NCBI RefSeq assembly: GCF_019670105.1
Contig: NZ_AP023032.1
Coordinates: forward strand, 1,854,972-1,918,971
Reading direction: 5' to 3'
DNA: 64,000 nt
From: Agarivorans albus
GTDB taxonomy: Bacteria; Pseudomonadota; Gammaproteobacteria; Enterobacterales; Celerinatantimonadaceae
A model generated the notes under the pieces. The model made no database searches. It was not told where the DNA came from and worked only from the letters and a program-made list of their open reading frames with translations. The position numbers were made by a program, and so were the translations under genes. Positions 4,769-34,736 of this stretch are shown here, in pieces. Numbering within the stretch: position 1 is the stretch's first letter; the number at the start of each line of letters is the position of its first letter.

Positions 4769-4794
4769 CTATTAGACTGGCAGTTACCCGCAAA

Positions 4795-4807
4795 TTGCAA
4801 TTTGCGA
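4795..4807. promoter_or_regulatory. Candidate activator (enhancer) site upstream of the STAS gene
   Basis: TTGCA-ATT-TGCGA matches the dyad TTGCA-N3-TGCAA at 9 of 10 positions and is embedded in an 18-bp perfect palindrome (4789-4806). Its centre is 91 bp before the -24 element at 4892. The same dyad precedes three other sigma54 promoters in the window, which is why I assign it to the local sigma54 activator (13129-14562). That assignment is inference. Confidence 0.6.
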
Positions 4808-4891
4808 AATCAGAATATTTCTTAATTTTAAAACCCTCCTTATTACTCATTTTTATATATATGCCTTTGTATTTATTGAATATTTTTAGTT

Positions 4892-4907
4892 TGGCATAAA
4901 ACTCGCT
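4892..4907 (+). promoter_or_regulatory. Sigma54 (-24/-12) promoter for the syp-like export operon
   Basis: TGGCAT-AAAAC-TCGC has the GG and GC dinucleotides at exactly the 12-bp separation required by RpoN holoenzyme. Only the first T of the -12 element is non-consensus. Predicted start is about 4917, 27 bases before the STAS gene ATG. The upstream block TTATTGAATAT plus TTTTAGTTTG is shared with the promoter at 34721. Confidence 0.75.
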
Positions 4908-4943: not shown

Positions 4944-5306
4944 ATGAAAATGCAACTAACTACTTCAAACCAAGGAAACCTTACCGCTTCAATTGTTGGC
5001 GCATTTGATGCTGAGTCTTGCGCCGAGCATAAAGCAGCCTTCGAAGGTATTTGCGCCGATGCAGCCAGCAAATTGGTGATTGTGAATATGAGCCAAGTAG
5101 AGTTTTTAGATGCATCTGGCATTGGCGCCTTGGTATTTATGTTTAAACGCATTAATGCGGCAGGCGGTCAACTAGTGTTACTTGGCGCTCAACAACAGCC
5201 TCGAGATTTGCTGGTTATGCTTCGTGTAGACCACATCATTACCATGATTGATACGCTACCTAGCCAAAATCATACCACTGATACTTTACCTTCAATCGCC
5301 GCTTAA
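4944..5306 (+). CDS. STAS-domain protein, SypA-like biofilm regulator
   Basis: A 120-residue single STAS domain of the anti-sigma-factor antagonist type. The phosphorylatable serine sits in the motif DASGIGAL (D56-A57-S58-G59). In Vibrio fischeri, SypA is a STAS protein whose serine is controlled by the kinase/phosphatase SypE and is needed for polysaccharide biofilm; here it is also the first gene of an equivalent operon, but no SypE homologue is seen in the window. ATG 4944 has the good site tggagcga upstream; an upstream in-frame start at 4917 would begin at about the predicted transcription start. It is driven by the sigma54 promoter at 4892. Confidence 0.85.
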   Translation: MKMQLTTSNQGNLTASIVGAFDAESCAEHKAAFEGICADAASKLVIVNMSQVEFLDASGIGALVFMFKRINAAGGQLVLLGAQQQPRDLLVMLRVDHIITMIDTLPSQNHTTDTLPSIAA

Positions 5307-5327: not shown

Positions 5328-6152
5328 ATGCGTAGCATTATCATCCCCGTATTGTTAACCATGACCACAGCTTGTACCGCCTGGCCAGAACAAGGACGCG
5401 GTGGTTTTGCCGAGCATCAACACGCTATCTTGGCTTGGATGGACGGTGACACTGGCACTACCGATCTTCGCGAGCTAGGCCCCGAACATGGCCTGCAATT
5501 TGAAGCTGTATTAGTAAAACACCAGTTAGATTTATTGGTGCTTGAAGGGGCAGAGTTATGTTTCCCTGCTTCGGTTACACAAGCTCGTATGCAACAACAG
5601 CGCATATTGCGCGAACTAGAAGGTGGGCTAACTTTTGATGCCGCCAACGATATTGAAATTCAGCAGCATTTTTTAAATATGTTGGAAAAACGTTTGGACC
5701 GGGTAACCGAGAGTGGCGCTTGCCAAACCGACCGTTTAGGACATATTCAGTCTTCACAATTAATGGTAAGCATTAGCGATGCATTAAACAGCAATAATCA
5801 ATTTGCTTTTGACTCTAGCGAGCTTACGCCTGCTTACCAAGATCAGCTTCGTAATCTAACGCCAATTATCGCAGCCAGTAAGGTATCGCTAATTATCACT
5901 GGGCATAGCGATAGCAAGGGCGATGACAGTTACAAACAGCGTTTATCTTTAGCCCGCGCCCAGGCCGTAGCCGAGTTTATGACCGAACTAGGCATGAACG
6001 AACAGCTAATCGAAGTGGCTGCCGTAGCCGACTCACAACCCTATTTAGAAGGTAACAGCGATGCTGTTCGCCATTCTAACCGCCGCGTTACCATCAGTGT
6101 TATTGATGCTGACAGCAACATCCTCGCTCAGCACGCTTTGCGTGTTAAATAA
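5328..6152 (+). CDS. OmpA-family outer-membrane lipoprotein, SypB-like
   Basis: A 274-residue protein with a short hydrophobic leader ending in a probable lipobox (TTAC, Cys at about residue 16). The N-terminal half is unassigned. The C-terminal OmpA/MotB peptidoglycan-binding domain (about residues 155-265) has ITGHSDSKGD and the helix RLSLARAQAV that bind diaminopimelate. It would anchor the polysaccharide export machinery to peptidoglycan. It follows the STAS gene by 21 bp with an aggag site before ATG 5328, and is followed by the Wza-like gene after 10 bp, whose ribosome site starts at its stop codon. SypB of V. fischeri has the same domain and the same gene position. Confidence 0.85.
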   Translation: MRSIIIPVLLTMTTACTAWPEQGRGGFAEHQHAILAWMDGDTGTTDLRELGPEHGLQFEAVLVKHQLDLLVLEGAELCFPASVTQARMQQQRILRELEGGLTFDAANDIEIQQHFLNMLEKRLDRVTESGACQTDRLGHIQSSQLMVSISDALNSNNQFAFDSSELTPAYQDQLRNLTPIIAASKVSLIITGHSDSKGDDSYKQRLSLARAQAVAEFMTELGMNEQLIEVAAVADSQPYLEGNSDAVRHSNRRVTISVIDADSNILAQHALRVK

Positions 6153-6162
6153 GGAGCTTGTC

Positions 6163-8301
6163 ATGAAATTCTTTAAATTGTGTAAGTACATAGTGGCAGC
6201 ATGGATGTTGTTTGGTTTTGTATTAAGTATTGTATTTAGCGCTCAAGCGCATGCAGCTAAACCTCAAGTGCAAGCGGGTGATGTAGTAAGAATTATTCTC
6301 CCTGGAGAAGCTTCGCTTGATAAGAATTTTGAAGTAGGGCGCAACGGCCGTTTAATTTTGCCAGAAGTTGGCCCAATCATGGTATCGGGTTTTACCGAAG
6401 CGCAAATGCAAGAAAAGATTAAGCGCGAATTGTCGAAAGCTTACCGTGACCTTGCTGGCCTAAAAGTATTGTTAGAAGAACGCCGTATTCGCATTAGTGT
6501 GCTGGGCTTTGTGGGCCAACCGGGTGAAGTAGTACTGGCACAAGGTGCTGGTGTGCAAATGGCGATTCAAGCCGCAGGTGGTTTACGCTCTGGTGCGCAA
6601 TTAGACCGCATGCAACTGCGCCGCGAGAGCTTAGATGAAACGCAAGTATTTAACTATAAACGCTACTTAGATTCTGGCGATTTAAGTGTTCTGCCAGAGC
6701 TTGAATCTTTAGATGTATTGTTTGTTCCTGCCTCACCTAAAATTGGCAATGTAGCAGTAGATTTTGACCCAAAAGCCTTAAACGATAAAGGTGACGCCGC
6801 TGAAGATCGCACTGCAGTAAAAGTATTTGGTGAAGTATATAACCCAGGTAGCTTTTCCTTTAAAGAGTCTGCCTCGTTAGTTGATATGCTAATGCGAGCA
6901 GGTGGTGTGACTCGCTACGCCAGTGTTGAACAGATCCGCGTTATCATCAACGGTGACCCGCAACTATTTAATTTAAAACGCTATTTAGATACCGGCGATA
7001 GCCAGATGATGCCCCGTTTAAGCGCTGGCACCACTATTTTTGTACCTAAGCAAGAAGAAGAGATTAAAGCGGGCGCCAACACCGTGTATGTAATGGGTGA
7101 AGTATTTAAGCCCGGTGCTTACGAAGGTAATAAATCTGCTGGCTTTTTAGATGTGCTAGCTAACTCTGGTGGCCCAACCCGTTTTGCCGAAACTCGCCAA
7201 ATTCGAGTGATTCGTAGCAATGGTTCGGTAGAGCGTTTTGACTTGCAATCGTTTACCGAAGGCCGAATCTCTCAGTTACCAGAAATAGCCGCTGGCGATG
7301 CGATTTTCATCCCAGAGAAAACCGATTTAAATGAAAAGTCGTGGACTAAAGTATCGCCTAATCGCGCGGTGAAGGTGATGGGTGAAGTTAATCGTCCTGG
7401 TCGTTTTGAATGGGCAAACGAGATGAACCTTATGGATTTGTTGGCTCATGCAGGTGGCCCTAAACCCAATGCCGATATGGCTAAAATTACCGTGTTGTTT
7501 AGCGATTCAAACGGCAATACTCGTTCGGTTAACTTTGACTTAAACGCTTACCTAAACGGCGAAATTAGTAATAACAGCATGCCACGCATCGTAGCGGGTA
7601 CCACGATTATGGTGCCGCAATTGCCAGACGACCCAAGCGACAACAAATCACAATGGGTGCGTCAGCGCTCTGAAGATTCTATCTACGTATTTGGTCAAGT
7701 AGTTGCACCTGGTCGCTACCGTTTTGACCCTAGCATGCACTTCCTAGACATTTTGGCTGCGGCCGATGGCCCAGCGGAGCAAGCAGACATTAGCAATGTG
7801 CGAATTAGTCATCGCAATGGCAAGCACTCTCGCGTGTCTAAATTAGATTTAGCGATGTACTTTGAAACCGGTGATGAGTCCTTACTGCCAAACGTAGTAC
7901 CTGGTGATTCTATCTACATTCCAGAAAAAGACCGTAACTGGTTGTCGGAGAAAAAAGAGCGCACCGTGCGCGTACTTGGCTCGGTGAACAAGCCTGGTCG
8001 TTACCGCTTTAACGATGACATGACGCTATTAGACTTGTTAGCCGAAGCGGGTGGTGTTGATAACGATGGCTTCCCAGAAAAGATTACCGTAGTGAACTTG
8101 TCTTGCTGTAAAGACCAAGCCCGCACCTTCAATTTACTTGAGTTTTCTAAAACCGGTGACTTTGGCATGTTGCCTGTGATTCGCGCTGGCGACACTGTGT
8201 ATATTCCATCACGTGAAGAGAGCGGCTGGCATAAGGCCCGCCAAGGCATGGAAGATGTGTTCCGCATTGTCACCATTAGCGCGCTGTTAGGTTTTCTATA
8301 A
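6163..8301 (+). CDS. Wza-like outer-membrane polysaccharide export protein with six SLBB modules
   Basis: A 712-residue protein. The signal peptide ends near AQAHAA. The Poly_export domain begins at AGDVVRIILPGEASLDKNFEVG. Six SLBB modules follow, each with a G-x-V-x-x-PG turn: GFVGQPGEV, GEVYNPGSF, GEVFKPGAY, GEVNRPGRF, GQVVAPGRY and GSVNKPGRY. E. coli Wza has 379 residues and far fewer modules, so this is an elongated periplasmic form. A hydrophobic C-terminus (IVTISALLGFL) ends the protein. ATG 6163 has an excellent aaggag site eight bases upstream; an upstream in-frame start at 6061 lies inside the preceding gene. By position and domain it corresponds to SypC and should form the exit channel for the polymer. 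Confidence 0.9.
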   Translation: MKFFKLCKYIVAAWMLFGFVLSIVFSAQAHAAKPQVQAGDVVRIILPGEASLDKNFEVGRNGRLILPEVGPIMVSGFTEAQMQEKIKRELSKAYRDLAGLKVLLEERRIRISVLGFVGQPGEVVLAQGAGVQMAIQAAGGLRSGAQLDRMQLRRESLDETQVFNYKRYLDSGDLSVLPELESLDVLFVPASPKIGNVAVDFDPKALNDKGDAAEDRTAVKVFGEVYNPGSFSFKESASLVDMLMRAGGVTRYASVEQIRVIINGDPQLFNLKRYLDTGDSQMMPRLSAGTTIFVPKQEEEIKAGANTVYVMGEVFKPGAYEGNKSAGFLDVLANSGGPTRFAETRQIRVIRSNGSVERFDLQSFTEGRISQLPEIAAGDAIFIPEKTDLNEKSWTKVSPNRAVKVMGEVNRPGRFEWANEMNLMDLLAHAGGPKPNADMAKITVLFSDSNGNTRSVNFDLNAYLNGEISNNSMPRIVAGTTIMVPQLPDDPSDNKSQWVRQRSEDSIYVFGQVVAPGRYRFDPSMHFLDILAAADGPAEQADISNVRISHRNGKHSRVSKLDLAMYFETGDESLLPNVVPGDSIYIPEKDRNWLSEKKERTVRVLGSVNKPGRYRFNDDMTLLDLLAEAGGVDNDGFPEKITVVNLSCCKDQARTFNLLEFSKTGDFGMLPVIRAGDTVYIPSREESGWHKARQGMEDVFRIVTISALLGFL

Positions 8302-10002: not shown

Positions 10003-13000
10003 ATGACATTTAGCTTTAAGGCAAAAACAGTTCTGGGCGTCGCTTTAATTGAAGCCGTGCTGTTAGGCGTGTTGGTGTATAGCAGTATTGGCTGGCTGTA
10101 TGATTCTAACGAACTGCAAGTTGAGCAGCACAGTAGAATGATGTCCTCTCTGTTTGCCTCTACCACTAAAAACGCCATTATCACTACCGATTTAGCCACC
10201 CTCGATAGCCTTACCAGTGAATTCTCCGCACAAAAAGACATTGCCTACGTCATAATCAAAGACCAAAACGATCGTTTGTTATCAAAGGCAGGCGTAGATC
10301 CCTTATCTAACCCTAGAGATAACCCCGACTTAGGAGACCATGAGCACAGCGTATTTGTTACCGAAAATGTCGTAGAGATTGGTGGGCGAATATACGGAAA
10401 CATAGAAATAGGTGTTTATGACCATGGCCTGCATGGCCTAATTTCTGAAGCGAGCTCTTTTGGGGTAAGTATCGCTTTATTGGAAATAGCTTTAGTGGCG
10501 CTGTTTTCGTTTTTGTTGGGCTCTTACCTTACTCGCCAGCTGGGCGACTTAAGAGATGCCGCCAAAACTATTACTCAAGTTGGACCGGGTATTCAACTTA
10601 AAGTGAAAGGCAAGGATGAGATATCCGAGGTATCAAACGCGTTTAACACCATGTCAGCTGCGCTGGAAAAGTCCCATATCGAGTTTAAGCAAGCCATTGA
10701 AACACAAGAAAAGCTAGCCTTAGAGCTTAAGCAAAACCAATCAATTTTAAAGGCAACCATCGCTTCTGCAATGGATGCCGTTATTACCACCGATAGACAC
10801 GGCCATGTATTAGAATTTAGCCAAAGTGCTGAACGAATTTTTGGTTATAGCCGAGATGAAATCGTGGGTGAAGAACTTGCGAGTTTTCTGGTACCAGAAG
10901 CATTTCGTGAAGCGCACCGTCAAGGCCTTAAGCATTTTAGAAAAACCGGTGAAGCGCCAGTATTAGGCCAGCGCTTAGAGTTACCCGCTATGCATAAAGA
11001 AGGACATGAGTTTCTTTCGGAGTTAACGATTAGTTCTGTAGAAGTGGGTGACGATACTGTATTTACCGCGTTTATGCGTGATATTTCAGACAAAAAACGC
11101 ACTGAACAAGAGCTGCAATTAGCCGCCGAAGCCTTTGATGCTAACGAAGCTATTTTTATTACTAATCAACATGCCGAAATTGTGCGGGTTAACCAAGCTT
11201 TTACCCGTATTACGGGTTATAGCGCTGAGGAAGCCTTAGGCCAAACCCCTTCAATATTAAGTTCTGGCGAGCACGATAAAGCGTTTTTCGACAATATGTG
11301 GCAACACCTCAAGCAAGATGGAGTGTGGTCGGGCGAAATTGTTAACCTTCGAAAAAATGGCGAACGTTTACCAGAGTGGTTAAGTATCTCGTCGGTGAAA
11401 AATCCAGAAGGTGAAATTACTCATTATGTGGCTCATTTTACTGATTTAAGTGAACAAAAAGCAGTGGAACAATCACTAGAGCGAGCCAAGCATGATGCAG
11501 AAGCCGCCAGCTTAGCTAAAAGCCGGTTTTTAGCTAGCATGAGCCACGAGATCCGCACCCCGTTAAATGCCATTATCAACATGTATCAAATACTTAAAGA
11601 AACCGATTTGAGCTTGGAGCAACAGGGTTTTGTTGATACTGGAAATGAGGCCGGACATACACTAATGGCCTTGGTGAATAATGTATTAGATTTTTCTAAA
11701 ATTGAGGCTGGTCAGTTAGAGTTTAACAACGAGTGGTTCTCGGCCACCGATACCTTAGAAAGCATCGTTAAGTTATTTAATACCACGGCTCAGCAAAAGG
11801 CTCTGAAGTTTGAGTTAGATGTGGCGGATGAAATACTGCCTGAGTATTTTGGTGAGCCATTGCGCTTTAGGCAAATTGTATTCAACTTAATGGGGAACGC
11901 GGTTAAATTTACCTCCAAGGGCGGAGTGAGCTTGGGGTTAAAAGCAACCCAACCTTATGGTGTAGAGCTTACTGTTAGTGACACTGGTATTGGTATAAGT
12001 AAAGAAGATAAAGAGCGCTTATTTGAAGAGTTTTATCAAGTGGACAGTGGTGCTACCAAACGTTATTCCGGTACCGGATTAGGCTTAGCAATTACCCGCC
12101 AATTAGTTGAGAAGATGGGCGGTGAGGTGAGCGTAGACAGTGAAGTAGGGCGCGGCACTACATTTACGGTAAATCTGCCCTTTAGAGGTCGCCATGCACC
12201 AGTGATTCAATTAGATGATATGGCGGAACAAACAGAGCCTGAGCAATCTGTAGTAGAAGATGCCAGAGTACTGTTGGTTGAAGACAGCGCTATGAACCGT
12301 GCGGTAGTGACCCAAGTACTTAAAGATTTTGTTAAAGAGTTAAGCTGCGCTGAAAATGGTCAAGTTGCTGTTGAGCTTTGCGAGCACAATGAATACGACG
12401 TGATTCTTATGGATATGGCAATGCCCGTAATGGACGGCTTAGCTGCAACTCGTGCCATTCGAGCAGCCAGTGGGCCTAATCAAGAAACTCCGATTTTGGC
12501 GATGACTGCCAATGCCTTTGCCGAAGATAAACAAGCCTGTTTTTCTGCAGGTATGAACGATTTTATCACTAAGCCTATCGACATCCCCTTGTTAAGGGCT
12601 AAACTGGTTCAGTGGTATAGCGAAGCACCAATTCGCTCGCAGCTCAGTGAGCCACTTATATCAACGATACCAGAGCAAACAACTGCTAGTAATAACGCTG
12701 ATAAACCTAAGGCGAACTTGCAGGCTGTTTCAGAGACAAAAACAGCAGCGGTGCTAGAACAAGACTTAAGTGTGTTGGTTGATAAAAAAGTGCTCGAGCA
12801 GTTGGTAAAAGATGCCGGAACAGAGGCGCTACCGTTGATGCTTTCTTTGTTATATCAAGAAACTGAGCAGCAGAGGGTAACCATTAAACAAGCTTTTGAA
12901 GAGCAGCTTTTTGACGACGTAGCATTAGCCGCTCATACCCTAAAGGGCAATGTAGCCACTTTTGGTGGCGAGCGTTTGAGGCAACTAGCATTAGCGATTG

Positions 13001-13119
13001 AAATAGCCGGTAAAGCATCGGACGCAGAAGCATTAGCCAATACTGTGCCGCAGTTAGACAATGCCGTAGAGCAAACAATTAACGCCATTAAACAGTTTGA
13101 AAAAACAGTGTGCGCTTAA
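10003..13119 (+). CDS. Hybrid sensor histidine kinase with Hpt domain, SypF-like
   Basis: A 1038-residue inner-membrane phosphorelay kinase. TM1 is at about 8-28, the periplasmic sensor at about 29-155, TM2 at about 157-178, then HAMP, a short coil, PAS1 (from about 245), PAS2 (from about 370), HisKA with phosphorylated His515 (ASMSHEIRTPLN), HATPase with DTGIGI and GTGLGL boxes, a receiver with phospho-acceptor Asp804 (LMDMAMPVMDG), and an Hpt domain with His978 (AAHTLKGN). This is the tripartite H-D-H arrangement expected to pass phosphate to the response regulator encoded 9 bp downstream. V. fischeri SypF has the same output end and phosphorylates SypG. The signal is unknown. Confidence 0.93.
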   Translation: MTFSFKAKTVLGVALIEAVLLGVLVYSSIGWLYDSNELQVEQHSRMMSSLFASTTKNAIITTDLATLDSLTSEFSAQKDIAYVIIKDQNDRLLSKAGVDPLSNPRDNPDLGDHEHSVFVTENVVEIGGRIYGNIEIGVYDHGLHGLISEASSFGVSIALLEIALVALFSFLLGSYLTRQLGDLRDAAKTITQVGPGIQLKVKGKDEISEVSNAFNTMSAALEKSHIEFKQAIETQEKLALELKQNQSILKATIASAMDAVITTDRHGHVLEFSQSAERIFGYSRDEIVGEELASFLVPEAFREAHRQGLKHFRKTGEAPVLGQRLELPAMHKEGHEFLSELTISSVEVGDDTVFTAFMRDISDKKRTEQELQLAAEAFDANEAIFITNQHAEIVRVNQAFTRITGYSAEEALGQTPSILSSGEHDKAFFDNMWQHLKQDGVWSGEIVNLRKNGERLPEWLSISSVKNPEGEITHYVAHFTDLSEQKAVEQSLERAKHDAEAASLAKSRFLASMSHEIRTPLNAIINMYQILKETDLSLEQQGFVDTGNEAGHTLMALVNNVLDFSKIEAGQLEFNNEWFSATDTLESIVKLFNTTAQQKALKFELDVADEILPEYFGEPLRFRQIVFNLMGNAVKFTSKGGVSLGLKATQPYGVELTVSDTGIGISKEDKERLFEEFYQVDSGATKRYSGTGLGLAITRQLVEKMGGEVSVDSEVGRGTTFTVNLPFRGRHAPVIQLDDMAEQTEPEQSVVEDARVLLVEDSAMNRAVVTQVLKDFVKELSCAENGQVAVELCEHNEYDVILMDMAMPVMDGLAATRAIRAASGPNQETPILAMTANAFAEDKQACFSAGMNDFITKPIDIPLLRAKLVQWYSEAPIRSQLSEPLISTIPEQTTASNNADKPKANLQAVSETKTAAVLEQDLSVLVDKKVLEQLVKDAGTEALPLMLSLLYQETEQQRVTIKQAFEEQLFDDVALAAHTLKGNVATFGGERLRQLALAIEIAGKASDAEALANTVPQLDNAVEQTINAIKQFEKTVCA

Positions 13120-13128
13120 GGAGAAGCC

Positions 13129-14562
13129 ATGGGAAGTGAGTTAACAGCCTCCGTATTATTGGTCGAAGACAGCGAAACGCTTGCTGCCACCTATCAGGCT
13201 TATTTAAGCAAAGAGAACCTAAAATTAGCGCGCGTTGCCACCGGTGGTGCCGCGATTGAGTTCTTGTCTAAGCAATCTCCGCAAGTGATGTTATTGGATT
13301 TAAACCTGCCAGATATGGGCGGGATGCAAGTATTAGAGTGGATGGTAGAACGTAGCTTGCCCACCTCGGTAATTATTATTACTGCCTATGGCTCGGTAGA
13401 TATTGCTGTTGACTCGATGCGTTTGGGGGTGGTGGATTTTATTGAAAAACCTTTTGATGCCAGCCGTTTAAAAGTGACCGTGAATAATGCACTTAACCTT
13501 CATAAGCTAAAATCTTTAGTCGAAAACTACCAAGCGGATGCAGGGCGCGATAGCTTCCATGGCTTTATTGGCAGCAGCCTAGCCATGCAAAATGTATATC
13601 GCATGATTGAAGCGGTAGCACCAAGTAAAGCCACAGTGTTTATTACCGGTGAAAGTGGTACCGGCAAGGAAGTTTGTGCCGAAGCCATTCATAAGCAAGG
13701 TACCCGTTCCGACAAACCGTTTGTGGCGATTAACTGTGGCGCTATTCCTAAAGATCTCATGGAGAGCGAGATTTTTGGTCATGTTAAAGGCGCATTTACC
13801 GGTGCCTCGTCGATGCGTGCAGGTGCAGCTTCACAAGCCCACGGTGGAACCTTGTTTCTTGATGAAATAGGCGAAATGGACATGGAGCTACAAACTAAGC
13901 TACTGCGCTTTGTTCAAACAGGCCGTTTTCAAAAAGTAGGTGGCAGCCAAGAAGAACAGGTGGATGTTAGGTTTTTGTGTGCCACCAACCGCGACCCCTG
14001 GGAAGAGGTGCAAGCTGGCCGATTTAGAGAAGATCTTTATTATCGCTTGTATGTAGTGCCAATTCATTTGCCGCCATTACGTGAAAGGGGATTAGATGTT
14101 CCCGGCATTGCGCAAAAGTTTCTGCGTCGTTACGCCAAGGAAGAGGGTAAGCAATTTCGCCGCTTTTCAAGTTTAACCGCTACGGTAATGAGCAACTATG
14201 ATTGGCCGGGGAATGTACGTCAGTTGCAAAACGTTATTCGCAATATTTGTGTATTACACGATGGCAAGGAAGTACTCGCTAGCCAGCTACCACCTCCGAT
14301 AAACCAATTGGTACCAGAAGGTGCCATCGGTAAAGATGGTCGACACCCAGAAGAAGTCGTTACCGAGGAACAAACTGATACTGGCTTAAACGGCGTTAGC
14401 CAATATCAAATTCAACCGCTGTGGATTACTGAGAAGGAAGCCATCGAACATGCGATAGACCATTGCGATGGTAATATTCCTAAAGCTGCAGAATTGCTGG
14501 ATGTAAGTCCTTCTACTATTTATCGCAAAAAGCAATCATGGGAAGAAGCCGAAGCAAGTTAG
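13129..14562 (+). CDS. Sigma54-dependent response regulator, SypG-like
   Basis: A 477-residue NtrC-family activator. The receiver domain has phospho-acceptor Asp57 (MLLDLNLPD) and K at EKPF. The AAA+ domain has Walker A GESGTGKE, the sigma54-contacting loop GAFTGA (221-226) and Walker [13 protein letters not shown]. The C-terminal Fis-type helix-turn-helix ([16 protein letters not shown]) binds enhancer DNA. It is the last gene of the 4944-14562 operon and is followed by a strong terminator. Six sigma54 promoters lie in the surrounding polysaccharide genes, four with a common upstream dyad, so this protein is the obvious candidate to activate them, as SypG does in V. fischeri. Confidence 0.95.
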
Positions 14563-15799: not shown

Positions 15800-15812
15800 T
15801 TGCAAGATGCAA
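15800..15812. promoter_or_regulatory. Candidate activator site upstream of the LruC-domain gene
   Basis: TTGCA-AGA-TGCAA is a perfect dyad, extending by one more T/A pair on each side. Its centre is 70 bp before the -24 element at 15876. It matches the dyads at 4795, 31092 and 34657. Confidence 0.65.
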
Positions 15813-15875
15813 AAGTGTCATTCTATTCAATGGGAGTGAGTACTTAAATTCATATAAATCATATTTTTACAAATC

Positions 15876-15891
15876 TGGCTTGGCTCTTGCT
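15876..15891 (+). promoter_or_regulatory. Sigma54 (-24/-12) promoter for the LruC-domain/lipoprotein/glycosyltransferase operon
   Basis: TGGCTT-GGCTC-TTGC, followed by T, has the exact GG-to-GC spacing and a perfect -12 element. Predicted start is about 15901, some 35 bases before the ATG at 15936. Confidence 0.75.
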
Positions 15892-19701: not shown

Positions 19702-19714
19702 TTGCAATTTGCAT
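19702..19714. promoter_or_regulatory. Orphan copy of the activator-like dyad
   Basis: TTGCA-ATT-TGCAT matches the dyad at 9 of 10 positions, 28 bp after the glycosyltransferase stop. About 30 bp downstream AGGATAAGTATTTGC has the right GG-to-GC spacing for sigma54 but a poor -24. Two stem-loops follow (arms at 19777-19785 and 19796-19804; CTATAACC/GGTTATAG at about 19863-19883). No plus-strand gene follows, so function is doubtful. Confidence 0.3.
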
Positions 19715-28694: not shown

Positions 28695-29639
28695 CTATCT
28701 CAGCATTAACAAATTACGGGTGTCCGCTAAGGTTTCTATAATGCGTCGGCGATTTGGGGAATAGTAAAGAGCTTGAACTCTTGAGAATATTGCTGATAGC
28801 CGCAGGCTTTGTTCATTGTATAACTCCGCTTCTGCGGTGGCGATGCGAGCTTTGGCTTGAGCTAAAGCTTTTGGTGATTGCTGTTTTACTGCTTGCGCAT
28901 AGCGCTGATAGATAATGTGCATGGCTTTAATGCGTAGCTGACTTTTACTGCTTTCAGAACCATCGCGCATTAGGTATTCGCAATCAACATGGTTGCTAAT
29001 GCCAACAGGGCCTAGTAATGCCAACTTTAGCCACAAGTCCCAATCTTCTGCCGAGGGCAGTTGCTCATCAAAAGCGAAGCATTTTAGTAAGGCTGTGCGT
29101 GATGCCATTACCGTAGAGGTGCCAACCACGTTTTCTGCAAACAAACTTGCTGCGGCATCGGGTTTAAGTTGGTAGCCCTTTTGTTGTTGGCTTAGGGCTT
29201 GGTAGTTTGGCCAAAACTCGAAGCAAGTGCCTCGGTCTTCGCCATTTTCTCCCACATGACGGTAATCGGTAAAACTAAAGCTTAACTCAGGCTTTGCTTG
29301 ATGAAATTCGATTTGGCGTTGTAGTTTGCCTGCTAACCAAATGTCATCGGCATCTAAAAAAGCAATAAGTGGCGCTTTTGCTTGTTGAATGGCGATATTA
29401 CGAGCCACTGCCGGGCCTTTGCCGCTGAGTTTAATGCTGCGTAGATGCGGTGTTTTTTGTTGTTGGTTTTGCAGCCATTGCCAGGTGCCATCGCTAGAGT
29501 TGTCGTCTACTACAATAACTTCCAGCTTATCTACGTTTTGTTGTTCAACGCTTGCTAAGGCTTGTTTTAAGTAGCTCAAACAATTGTAAGTAGGGATCAC
29601 TACACTGCATATGGGTTGGCTATTCACTAAGTTAGGCAT
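28695..29639 (-). CDS. GT2-family glycosyltransferase
   Basis: A 314-residue inverting glycosyltransferase of the GT-A fold. It begins SVVIPTYNCLSYL, has DDNSSDGTW and the metal-binding DADD motif (LIAFLDADDIWLAG), and SAEDWDLWLKLA as acceptor-side motif. ATG 29639 has aggag seven bases before it. An upstream ATG at 29666 lies within the forward -24 element and lacks a ribosome site. It is transcribed leftward from a sigma54 promoter at 29691-29706, opposite to the ligase gene, so it belongs to the polysaccharide regulon although it points away from the block. Confidence 0.9.
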   Translation of the reverse strand: MPNLVNSQPICSVVIPTYNCLSYLKQALASVEQQNVDKLEVIVVDDNSSDGTWQWLQNQQQKTPHLRSIKLSGKGPAVARNIAIQQAKAPLIAFLDADDIWLAGKLQRQIEFHQAKPELSFSFTDYRHVGENGEDRGTCFEFWPNYQALSQQQKGYQLKPDAAASLFAENVVGTSTVMASRTALLKCFAFDEQLPSAEDWDLWLKLALLGPVGISNHVDCEYLMRDGSESSKSQLRIKAMHIIYQRYAQAVKQQSPKALAQAKARIATAEAELYNEQSLRLSAIFSRVQALYYSPNRRRIIETLADTRNLLMLR

Positions 29640-29660
29640 ATCAATCTCCTGGATAGTAGC

Positions 29661-29676
29661 TGGCATTCAGCTTGCT
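29661..29676 (+). promoter_or_regulatory. Sigma54 promoter, rightward, for the O-antigen ligase-like gene
   Basis: TGGCAT-TCAGC-TTGC followed by T: consensus -12, and GG-to-GC spacing of exactly 12. The predicted start is about 29687, 33 bases before the ATG at 29720. No TTGCA-N3-TGCAA dyad was found within 150 bp upstream. Confidence 0.8.
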
Positions 29677-29690
29677 TATACAGCTACATA

Positions 29691-29706
29691 AGCAATCTGA
29701 ATGCCA
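29691..29706 (-). promoter_or_regulatory. Sigma54 promoter, leftward, for the divergent GT2 gene
   Basis: On the minus strand TGGCAT-TCAGA-TTGC followed by T, same spacing and quality as its partner. Predicted start is about 29680, giving a leader of about 40 bases to ATG 29639. A partial dyad (CGCA-AAA-TGCAA, 30032-30043) lies about 330 bp upstream of it, too far to be convincing. Confidence 0.78.
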
Positions 29707-29719
29707 GAGAGTAATGTAA

Positions 29720-31114
29720 ATGAAAGCAGCCTTAAAAAATCAAGATCATAGCGGAATGCGACTCAAGCCTTTAGCTTGGTCATTATTGGTTGTGGCGCTG
29801 GTGGCTCTAATTTGGCTAAGGATATCTAACCCATTGATTCCTATAGTCTTAGGCGTTCTTCCTCTGCTTATTGTAATGGTAATGAAACAACCTTTCTGGG
29901 TAGTGCTTGGCTTTGTTTGTTTCTCATTTTTTCGTTTACACGAAGCTTTTCCTGCCTTGTATGTTTTACGTATTCCGCAATTATTGGCCCTTGCATCTTT
30001 AGCTTGTTTAGCTTGGCATTTATTCATTTCTCGCAAAATGCAAATCTACTGGAGTAAAGAATTAAGCTGCTTAATGTTGTTTGTGGCCTTGTGTGCGCTG
30101 GGGGTGATATTTGCCAGTAGCAGACCGACAGCAATGGCATATTTTAATGGGGTATTTAGCAAGATAGCCTTGATGACAGTAGCGATTGCTTGGTTAATGC
30201 GTCGCCCCAAAGATTTTGAGAGAGCAGCCGTTGCCTTTTTTGTTTGTGGCTTAATGATTGCGACAGTTGCCTTACAAAATGCCGCCGCCGGTATAGAAAT
30301 GGTAGAGGGCACCCGAGTAACCATTGGCCGCTCGATGGGCTCGGTATTAGGAGACCCAAACGACCTCGCTTTAACCTTGCAGTTTCCCTTAGGCTTTGCA
30401 TTGGCCTATAGCTTAAAGCGGGGTTTTTCGTTCACTCGCTTGCTAGCCATTGTATGTGCTGGAGCGATTATCTTAGCCATTTTGGCCACTCAAAGCCGAG
30501 GTGGATTGTTAGGCATTGCCACCATTTGTGCAGTGCTAGCATGGCGAAGAGTGGAAAATAAGGCGCTGCTAATTAGCGCCGGCGCCTTGGCATTACCGAT
30601 ATTGTTTATTCTGGCAGGCGTGTCGGAGCGTAGCTCGGGGGGGGCGGCCGAGTCGGGAATTGATGAGTCTTCGATGGGCCGAATTTATGCGTGGCAGGCT
30701 GCCTTTAAGATGGCTTTATATAACCCCATTACCGGGGTTGGTATTGATAACTTTTACGCTAACTACTATTTCTTCTCATCTCACTGGGACGGTAAGAATC
30801 ATGCCGTTCATAGCACCTGGTTTGGGGTGCTGGCAGAAACAGGCTTTGTGGGGTTTATCGTATTTTGCGTACTGCTATTTAAAGTTTGTCGGCTCGCCCA
30901 TCAAAATCTAAAGACCCTTGCACAACATGCCTCGAGTAAACATACTGGCTTGTTCTCCTGCGCTGAAGGGGTGTTTGCGGGTATGTTAGGCACCATTGTT
31001 TCGGGCACCTTCCTTACTCAAGGCTTTACTTGGCCTATCTATATTTTTACTGCCTTAGTGGTAGCGATTGCTCAGCTACTTCGTCAACCCATTGCAGAAT
31101 GCAAAAGCCGCTAA
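29720..31114 (+). CDS. O-antigen ligase/polymerase-like membrane protein (Wzy/WaaL, SypK/L-like)
   Basis: A 464-residue inner-membrane protein with about 11 TM segments. The Wzy_C signature region contains GSVLGDPNDLALTLQFPLG, ATQSRGGLLGI and the large periplasmic loop with SMGRIYAWQAAFKMALYNPITGVGIDNF and NHAVHSTWFGVLAETG, where the catalytic His and Arg of the family reside. It would polymerise or transfer lipid-linked repeat units in the periplasm. Its 3' end (31092-31104) contains the activator-like dyad for the next operon. V. fischeri SypK and SypL belong to the same superfamily. Confidence 0.9.
   Translation: MKAALKNQDHSGMRLKPLAWSLLVVALVALIWLRISNPLIPIVLGVLPLLIVMVMKQPFWVVLGFVCFSFFRLHEAFPALYVLRIPQLLALASLACLAWHLFISRKMQIYWSKELSCLMLFVALCALGVIFASSRPTAMAYFNGVFSKIALMTVAIAWLMRRPKDFERAAVAFFVCGLMIATVALQNAAAGIEMVEGTRVTIGRSMGSVLGDPNDLALTLQFPLGFALAYSLKRGFSFTRLLAIVCAGAIILAILATQSRGGLLGIATICAVLAWRRVENKALLISAGALALPILFILAGVSERSSGGAAESGIDESSMGRIYAWQAAFKMALYNPITGVGIDNFYANYYFFSSHWDGKNHAVHSTWFGVLAETGFVGFIVFCVLLFKVCRLAHQNLKTLAQHASSKHTGLFSCAEGVFAGMLGTIVSGTFLTQGFTWPIYIFTALVVAIAQLLRQPIAECKSR
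31092..31104. promoter_or_regulatory. Candidate activator site inside the end of the ligase-like gene
   Basis: TTGCA-GAA-TGCAA is a perfect dyad. Its centre is 81 bp before the -24 element at 31179. It lies in the last codons of the upstream gene, so coding constraint was compatible with keeping it. Confidence 0.6.
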
Positions 31115-31178
31115 AAAAGCGTTCCTTATTACAACTTCCTCGCTCTTATCTTATTGAATTTAAATAACTAATAATGGA

Positions 31179-31194
31179 TGGCCTAGCTTTTGCT
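31179..31194 (+). promoter_or_regulatory. Sigma54 promoter for the glycosyltransferase/flippase operon
   Basis: TGGCCT-AGCTT-TTGC followed by T, correct spacing and consensus -12. TTATTGAAT lies 19 bp upstream, as at 34694. Predicted start is about 31205, 60 bases before ATG 31264. Confidence 0.75.
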
Positions 31195-34646: not shown

Positions 34647-34679
34647 AAAGAGCGAATTGCAAACTGCAATTCGCTCTTT
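34647..34679 (+). terminator. Stem-loop terminator after the flippase gene, overlapping an activator-like dyad
   Basis: AAAGAGCGAATTGCA at 34647-34661 pairs perfectly with its complement at 34665-34679 around the loop AAC; gctttcttttt follows. It lies six bases after the flippase stop. The upper half of the stem is the TTGCA-N3-TGCAA dyad. Confidence 0.75.
34657..34669. promoter_or_regulatory. Candidate activator site upstream of the acyltransferase gene
   Basis: TTGCA-AAC-TGCAA, a perfect dyad with its centre 58 bp before the -24 element at 34721. It coincides with the top of a terminator stem, so the symmetry alone could be explained by the hairpin; the sequence match to the dyads at 15800 and 31092 is what supports a second role. 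Confidence 0.5.
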
Positions 34680-34720
34680 GCTTTCTTTTTAAGTTATTGA
34701 ATATGTTGATTTTAGTTTGT

Positions 34721-34736
34721 TGGCATAAATGCTGCT
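34721..34736 (+). promoter_or_regulatory. Sigma54 promoter for the acyltransferase/glycosyltransferase pair
   Basis: TGGCAT-AAATG-CTGC followed by T, correct spacing. It shares the blocks TTATTGAATAT, TTTTAGTTTG and TTGGCATAAA with the promoter at 4892, as if copied from it. Predicted start is about 34747, 35 bases before ATG 34782. Confidence 0.75.

Follow-up and report, generated by a model that had tools for sequence, protein, structure and literature searches.

The window (the whole stretch of Agarivorans albus DNA that was analyzed, 64,000 nucleotides long) contains a syp-like polysaccharide cluster. In this cluster, a palindrome separates two divergently oriented genes, one encoding a family 2 glycosyltransferase (GT2) and the other an O-antigen ligase/polymerase-like protein with a Wzy_C domain, the latter being followed by more polysaccharide genes. 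The features considered here are the following:

4944..5306, plus strand: STAS-domain protein, SypA-like, with a sigma54-like promoter in front
5328: OmpA-family protein of the cluster
6061-8301: polysaccharide export protein of the cluster
10003..13119, plus strand: hybrid histidine kinase, adjoining the next gene
13129..14562, plus strand: sigma54 enhancer-binding response regulator, LuxO/SypG-like (NF041946 LuxO, 664.5 bits)
28695..29639, minus strand: GT2 gene (PF00535, 2.1e-32; ribosome-binding site AGGAGA)
29660..29707, no strand: palindrome holding both sigma54 elements (arms 19/20; spacer 29680-29687, predicted to lie in a shared melting region)
29661..29675, plus strand: rightward sigma54 -24/-12 element TGGCATTCAGCTTGC, facing the Wzy_C gene; predicted start 29687; kept in 6/7 Agarivorans
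29692..29706, minus strand: leftward sigma54 -24/-12 element TGGCATTCAGATTGC, facing the GT2 gene; predicted start 29680
29720..31114, plus strand: Wzy_C O-antigen ligase/polymerase-like gene (PF04932, 1.9e-22; TIGR03097, 125.6 bits, below the cut-off of 188.1)
30031..30043, no strand: LuxO/SypG-type enhancer-like site TCGCAAAATGCAA (12/13) inside the ligase gene; candidate activator site

The regulator falls below the NCBIfam NF041946 LuxO equivalog cut-off (664.5 versus 800 bits), so it is classed as LuxO-like and not as LuxO. The rpoN gene is present in the genome (one match, 8.5e-71). The start codon of the GT2 gene is better set at the ATG at 29639, behind AGGAGA, than at the ATG chosen by the ORF finder, 29666, which lies within the palindrome. 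The export protein contains three SLBB matches and passes the threshold of the XrtA/PEP-CTERM export family TIGR03027 (194.4 versus a cut-off of 180 bits).

The palindrome and its two sigma54-type elements

A repeat search of the window bears out the near-perfect 20-bp palindrome with an 8-bp spacer that had been proposed for this site: the inverted repeat 29660-29679/29688-29707 consists of 20-nt arms that are complementary at 19 of the 20 positions (95%) and flank an 8-nt spacer. It is the sole inverted repeat in the 64-kb window with 20-nt arms, at most one mismatch and a loop of 4-20 nt, and no such repeat appeared in three dinucleotide-shuffled versions of the window. Each arm contains TGGCAT-N5-TTGCTT, so that both have GG and GC ten bases apart within TGGCAY-N5-TTGC and match the sigma54 -24/-12 consensus. 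Exact matches to TGGCAYNNNNNTTGCWT number two in the window and are precisely these (plus strand, 29661-29677; minus strand, 29706-29690); tolerating one mismatch raises the count to three, against 2.65 expected, so single one-mismatch sites are not rare and it is the exact opposed pair that stands out. By the usual rule, which places the start 12 nt past the C of the -12 GC, transcription is predicted to begin at 29687 rightwards and at 29680 leftwards, the same positions at the spacer edges as in the original prediction; the transcripts would thus diverge, with each leader crossing the opposite promoter.

Several trivial explanations of the repeat were considered and dismissed. A dispersed or REP-like element is ruled out: elsewhere in the genome, a search for the palindrome half-site with up to three mismatches allowed found a single match, which has all three. 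An RNA hairpin or terminator as the main function was rejected given that, as read from the sequence, each predicted transcript would include one arm only and no T-run follows the repeat. A chance origin is rejected by the shuffle counts for window repeats and, as described below, for enhancer-promoter units and for the loci of relatives.

The GT2/Wzy_C gene pair with opposed elements is present in six of the seven Agarivorans genomes; the seventh, G002, has distant relatives only. In all six, TGGCAT and TGCTTAT are kept on both sides at the same distance (measured throughout between the outer T's of the two elements; 45 in the window), and the leftward element has ATGC or GTGC in place of TTGC in two genomes. 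The symmetry of the arms varies: G001 and G003 have perfect arms, G006 differs from the others by one C/T change that is matched in both arms, and in G004 and G005 the arms are unlike, with differences between -24 and -12 and, on one side, at the first T of TTGC. Arms identical at 19-20 of the 20 positions occur in four Agarivorans genomes, the only ones in which the near-exact 20-bp palindrome was found. Varying symmetry combined with constant TGGCAT/TGCTTAT implies that the elements are what is kept; judging from these alignments, the near-exact palindrome is probably a by-product and not the functional unit. The nearest genera retain the arrangement without the long repeat, with an opposed pair at distance 44 in Aliagarivorans (G008, L066; elements alike at 10/15 positions) and at distance 79 in Alginatibacterium (G007, L069; 13/15).

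In the four genomes with near-identical arms, the arms seem to evolve together (window 29660-29707, L015), which is what template switching in a quasi-palindrome would produce, and the matched change in G006 likewise looks like the copying of one arm onto the other. It is conceivable that only one promoter works, the other being a mutational copy generated by template switching within a hairpin: the arms are equal or nearly so in four Agarivorans and unlike in G004, G005 and Aliagarivorans, as if one had been copied. However, the relatives with unlike arms also have both elements, so that the second element probably predates the copying, and we regard the single-promoter explanation as extremely improbable.

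Facing elements upstream of GT2 relatives in other Proteobacteria

A search of contigs with the single GT2 protein retrieved no relatives, whereas an alignment-based profile search yielded 255 loci, the best 79 of which were retained. Scoring covered 60 of the 79 (L065-L125 without L109, for which the upstream DNA is missing), the 18 more distant loci (L126-L143) being left out. The scored region extended 250 bp upstream from the GT2 start of the match, and a score of 5 denotes the required GG and GC plus five of eight further positions. At a score of at least 5, an element directed towards GT2 is found in 48 of the 60 loci, one directed the opposite way in 45, both in 42 and neither in 9; shuffled upstream regions gave 0.12 and 0.13 elements per region in the two directions, and about one locus with both directions is expected. 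At score 6, 13 of the 60 loci have neither element. Three arrangements recur: a distance of exactly 27 (15/60 loci versus 0.07, maximum 2, in shuffles), face-to-face pairs at 36-100 bp (17/60 versus 0.24, maximum 2; L087, L088 and L114 are weak) and back-to-back pairs within 100 bp, instead of or beside the other pairs (11/60 versus 0.33, maximum 3). With the score raised to at least 6, the respective counts are 6, 14 and 7 against 0, 0.003 and 0.02 in shuffles. All these counts refer to 60 loci that share descent and, therefore, are not independent events.

The face-to-face loci span Ferrimonas, Neiella, Oleispira, Colwellia and Pseudovibrio, and those at distance 27 span Zhengella, Beijerinckiaceae and others. 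Among ten neighbors across the promoter identified by Pfam, four are Wzy_C proteins (Aliagarivorans, Ferrimonas, Alginatibacterium, Neiella) and six are GT4 glycosyltransferases (three Alphaproteobacteria, Oleispira, Colwellia and an Oceanospirillaceae MAG); most of the other listed alphaproteobacterial neighbors, L087 excepted, resemble the same GT4 by their start sequence. Thus, the opposed pair occurs with either neighbor. In four Rhodospirillales/Acetobacteraceae-like loci (L076, L094, L099, L107), sigma54-like elements are located back-to-back upstream of GT2, and L094 and L107 also have an enhancer-like motif, GCATTCTGCAA.

When the distance is 27, four bases belong to both 16-bp elements, which then have one common -12 (e.g., CGGCATCGCTCTTGCAAGGCTGGTGCCA in L073). 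The 15 loci of this kind comprise 12 clear and three doubtful ones (L100, L101, L106); five have the full TTGCAA center (L073, L075, L083, L093, L096), and in seven, from Hyphomicrobiales and for the most part Beijerinckiaceae, the -12 directed towards GT2 is a weaker AGCA. A strict pattern for the shared -12 form had no match in 398 evenly drawn Pseudomonadota genomes, with one site in the control; a looser pattern, applied to 25 chosen genomes, matched in 13, in 11 of them at the GT2 locus, with five further sites in four genomes and none in the control. For the separated form, 17 of 394 genomes of the order contain the pattern TGGCAY-N6-TGC-N4..34-GCA-N6-RTGCCA, in seven cases at the GT2 locus (the six Agarivorans and Aliagarivorans); the other ten genomes contribute 11 sites, and of the ten sites that were located, eight lie in stop-free frames of at least 540 nt and two outside such frames. 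Six sites in two genomes came from the reversed control.

These comparisons also bear on the possibility that a dimeric repressor or activator uses the palindrome as its operator, its likeness to sigma54 promoters being secondary. The symmetry seen in Agarivorans is what such an operator would look like: to the near-identical arms of four genomes and the matched C/T change can be added a central TGCTTAT-N8-ATAAGCA that is symmetric in all six, and even the Alginatibacterium elements are still alike at 13 of 15 positions. In the 17 loci compared, however, the two elements agree at 0 to 3 of the 5 positions that separate -24 from -12, and both elements are kept at distances from 37 to 96, where an operator would need fixed spacing; we consider an operator very unlikely. 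Given that the opposed -24/-12 elements outlast the full symmetry in relatives, the comparison strongly supports the other part of the original prediction, two face-to-face sigma54 promoters.

Promoter geometry, candidate enhancers and proposed mode of action

The gap between the predicted starts equals 52 minus the distance, i.e., 7 in the window and 8 in Aliagarivorans; it runs from 8 to -7 for the ten loci at 44-59 and is negative, with overlapping transcripts, at 68-96. Sigma54 polymerase melts DNA from about -11 to +2, and the predicted melted regions of the two promoters in the window share about 10 bp. In the cryo-EM structure of the sigma54 closed complex, a stable assembly, the modelled DNA extends from about -33 to -5/-9 (PMC5505868). 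Projected on the window, the two closed-complex spans, 29654-29682 and 29685-29713, abut without overlap; at distance 27, they overlap. The shared melted region implies that open complexes exclude each other, and closed complexes may or may not, the protein bodies of two of them being likely to clash in this model. The earlier contention that only one promoter can be occupied at any moment thus follows for the predicted open complexes but need not hold for closed complexes, with their abutting DNA spans.

Candidate enhancers were scored out of 13 against the LuxO/SypG-type motif of Vibrionaceae, TTGCAWWWTGCAA, which is the LuxO enhancer motif; at qrr1, SypG acts via sites that overlap (PMC10162802). 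The window has four units in which a motif of this type precedes a -24/-12 element by 64-104 bp:

4789..4907, plus strand: enhancer motif 4795 and sigma54 element 4892
15800..15891, plus strand: enhancer motif 15800 and sigma54 element 15876
31092..31194, plus strand: enhancer motif 31092 and sigma54 element 31179
34657..34736, plus strand: enhancer motif 34657 and sigma54 element 34721

Altogether, the window contains five enhancer-sigma54 pairs against a mean of 0.07 and a maximum of 2 in 100 shuffles, at thresholds that were chosen after an earlier scan of the same window. Of the 14 score-6 sigma54 elements of the window, the palindrome accounts for two and the enhancer units for four; the remaining eight lie outside the palindrome and have no enhancer. 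Ahead of the STAS gene, at 4789-4806, there is a perfect 18-bp palindrome, CGCAAATTGCAATTTGCG, that contains two overlapping enhancer motifs; at 19702-19714, an enhancer motif, TTGCAATTTGCAT (12/13), has no score-6 sigma54 element within 30-150 bp.

For the facing pair in the window, no enhancer motif of at least 10/13 is found within 60-150 bp of either promoter. Motifs at or above this score between 29000 and 30600 are those at 29294, 29864, 30135 and 30272 (10 each) and the one at 30031 (12), which lies about 350 bp from the pair, on the downstream side of the right promoter. The place of the 30031 site is the same in 6/6 Agarivorans, and Aliagarivorans has an 11/13 enhancer-like site 336 bp from the center of the pair, compared with 347 bp in the window; Alginatibacterium has no enhancer-like site at a comparable position. 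Nowhere in the ligase gene is there a longer stretch free of synonymous change than the codons at the 30031 site (four eligible codons; 17% of 312 are invariant), but a four-codon invariant run anywhere in the gene has a permutation probability of 0.19, so only the coincidence of the run with the site counts as support. More generally, a LuxO-type motif of at least 10/13 is present in the 250 bp upstream of GT2 in 17 of the 60 loci (1.45, maximum 4, in shuffles), and none of at least 9/13 in this region of the 12 clear distance-27 loci. In Alginatibacterium (L069:2942-2954) and in two of the three Neiella loci (L072:2923-2935 and L074), an enhancer motif is located between the facing promoters and follows a predicted start by a few bases, which is an unusual place for an enhancer. 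The recurrence of a similar opposed pair at many GT2 relatives in distant bacteria suggests one control point for both directions, and the GT2 and Wzy_C genes are probably co-activated.

The original prediction went further and held that expression of the two genes is mutually exclusive. In this scenario, occupancy of one promoter would shut the other, and single cells would express one gene or the other. The overlap of the bubbles (about 10 of 13 bp by geometry) and the stability of sigma54 closed complexes (PMC5505868) are compatible with such behavior. The sigma70 precedent can be read either way: the five bidirectional promoters tested fire too weakly at the basal level to compete, and competition sets in once one side is strongly activated, which can repress the other (Warman et al., NAR 2026, PMC12825309). 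Against mutual exclusion, no direction-specific activator site was found at the locus, the two genes are part of a single polysaccharide cluster, and the pair also occurs in related loci at distances as large as 96 bp, at which one occupied promoter need not exclude the other. The claim is not supported, considering that firings can alternate, and a scenario of this kind appears very improbable. Co-expression by alternating initiation is simpler because both genes belong to one polysaccharide cluster and probably have a LuxO/SypG-like regulator in common.

We therefore favor co-expression, in which the two opposing -24/-12 elements, with start regions that almost coincide, would fire GT2 leftwards and Wzy_C rightwards. 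A LuxO/SypG-type enhancer-binding protein, probably the product of 13129-14562, would act as the activator and, perhaps bound at 30031, would loop to the holoenzyme on either element. Because the melted regions overlap, each firing would be one-way; firings would alternate, with both polysaccharide genes on together in a ratio set by the two elements. On balance, it is quite probable that the locus is a bidirectional sigma54 promoter of this kind, with opposing elements and nearly coincident starts, from which GT2 on the left and Wzy_C on the right are switched on together by alternate firing. To a broader proposal, we give slightly less than an even chance: the GT2 junction of these clusters might represent a conserved class of sigma54 bidirectional promoters across Alpha- and Gammaproteobacteria. 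In the tightest form, the two promoters would share a self-complementary TTGCAA -12, and a single activator complex would choose, at every initiation on the 28-bp core, which way transcription goes; in the looser form, to which the window would belong, a closed complex may sit on each of the facing promoters at once, with only melting being exclusive.

Comparison with known bidirectional and sigma54-dependent systems

The original prediction knew of no described pair with this layout. As far as the topology is concerned, this has to be qualified: bidirectional promoters of the same topology are common and studied for sigma70 (PMC12825309). No sigma54 face-to-face pair was found in searches of partial coverage, which included few subscription journals; no overlapping sigma54 pair was found in the accessible parts of PMC8577284, PMC4641369, PMC4591121, PMC3538637, PMC4551910, PMC2680985, PMC3900584, PMC5882170 and PMC4424350; and sigma54 is not mentioned in the main text of PMC12825309. 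Salmonella ChIP-exo data include 20 RpoN sites at divergent promoter regions, with no geometry given in the available part of the report (PMC10794520), and in the hrpL/hrpJ region of P. syringae, a sigma54 promoter is paired with a HrpL promoter (PMC5263251).

The distinction between the two sigma factors matters. Sigma70 polymerases compete for binding, whereas the sigma54 holoenzyme binds first and then waits. With two opposing sigma54 promoters, competition for binding is therefore a separate matter from competition for melting, and both directions could be served by a single activator. The spacings that occur naturally (27; 44-59; 68-96; and, more weakly, 37, 38 and 81) are a ready test set for polymerase exclusion and are also suited to asking how an AAA+ activator chooses between facing polymerases.

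Among sigma54-dependent systems, a close one is the syp locus of Vibrio fischeri, which, like the window, combines a polysaccharide cluster, a LuxO/SypG-like regulator, TTGCAWWWTGCAA-type enhancers and sigma54 promoters (PMC10162802) and in which SypA is a STAS protein (PMC4517449), as in the cluster described here; the gene content was compared in part, and unlike in the window, no face-to-face pair is described for syp in the accessible text of PMC10162802. The sox genes of Bacillus thuringiensis form opposing operons with sigma54 promoters and one common enhancer. By description, this enhancer precedes the soxB start by 54 bp and the soxC promoter lies in the other operon beyond soxR, with no overlap between the promoters (PMC4941409). 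With respect to geometry, a close counterpart is found in the sigma70 bidirectional promoters of E. coli, in which diverging transcripts are most often 18 bp apart, and also 10 and 23. The opposing sigma70 promoters are too close for two polymerases, a limit that would apply in the window to the predicted open complexes, and the sigma70 starts beside or within a symmetric shared -10 resemble the shared -12 of the distance-27 loci (PMC12825309). Sigma70 bidirectional promoters, however, use -10/-35 elements and have no obligatory enhancer-binding ATPase, whereas sigma54 closed complexes await their activator.
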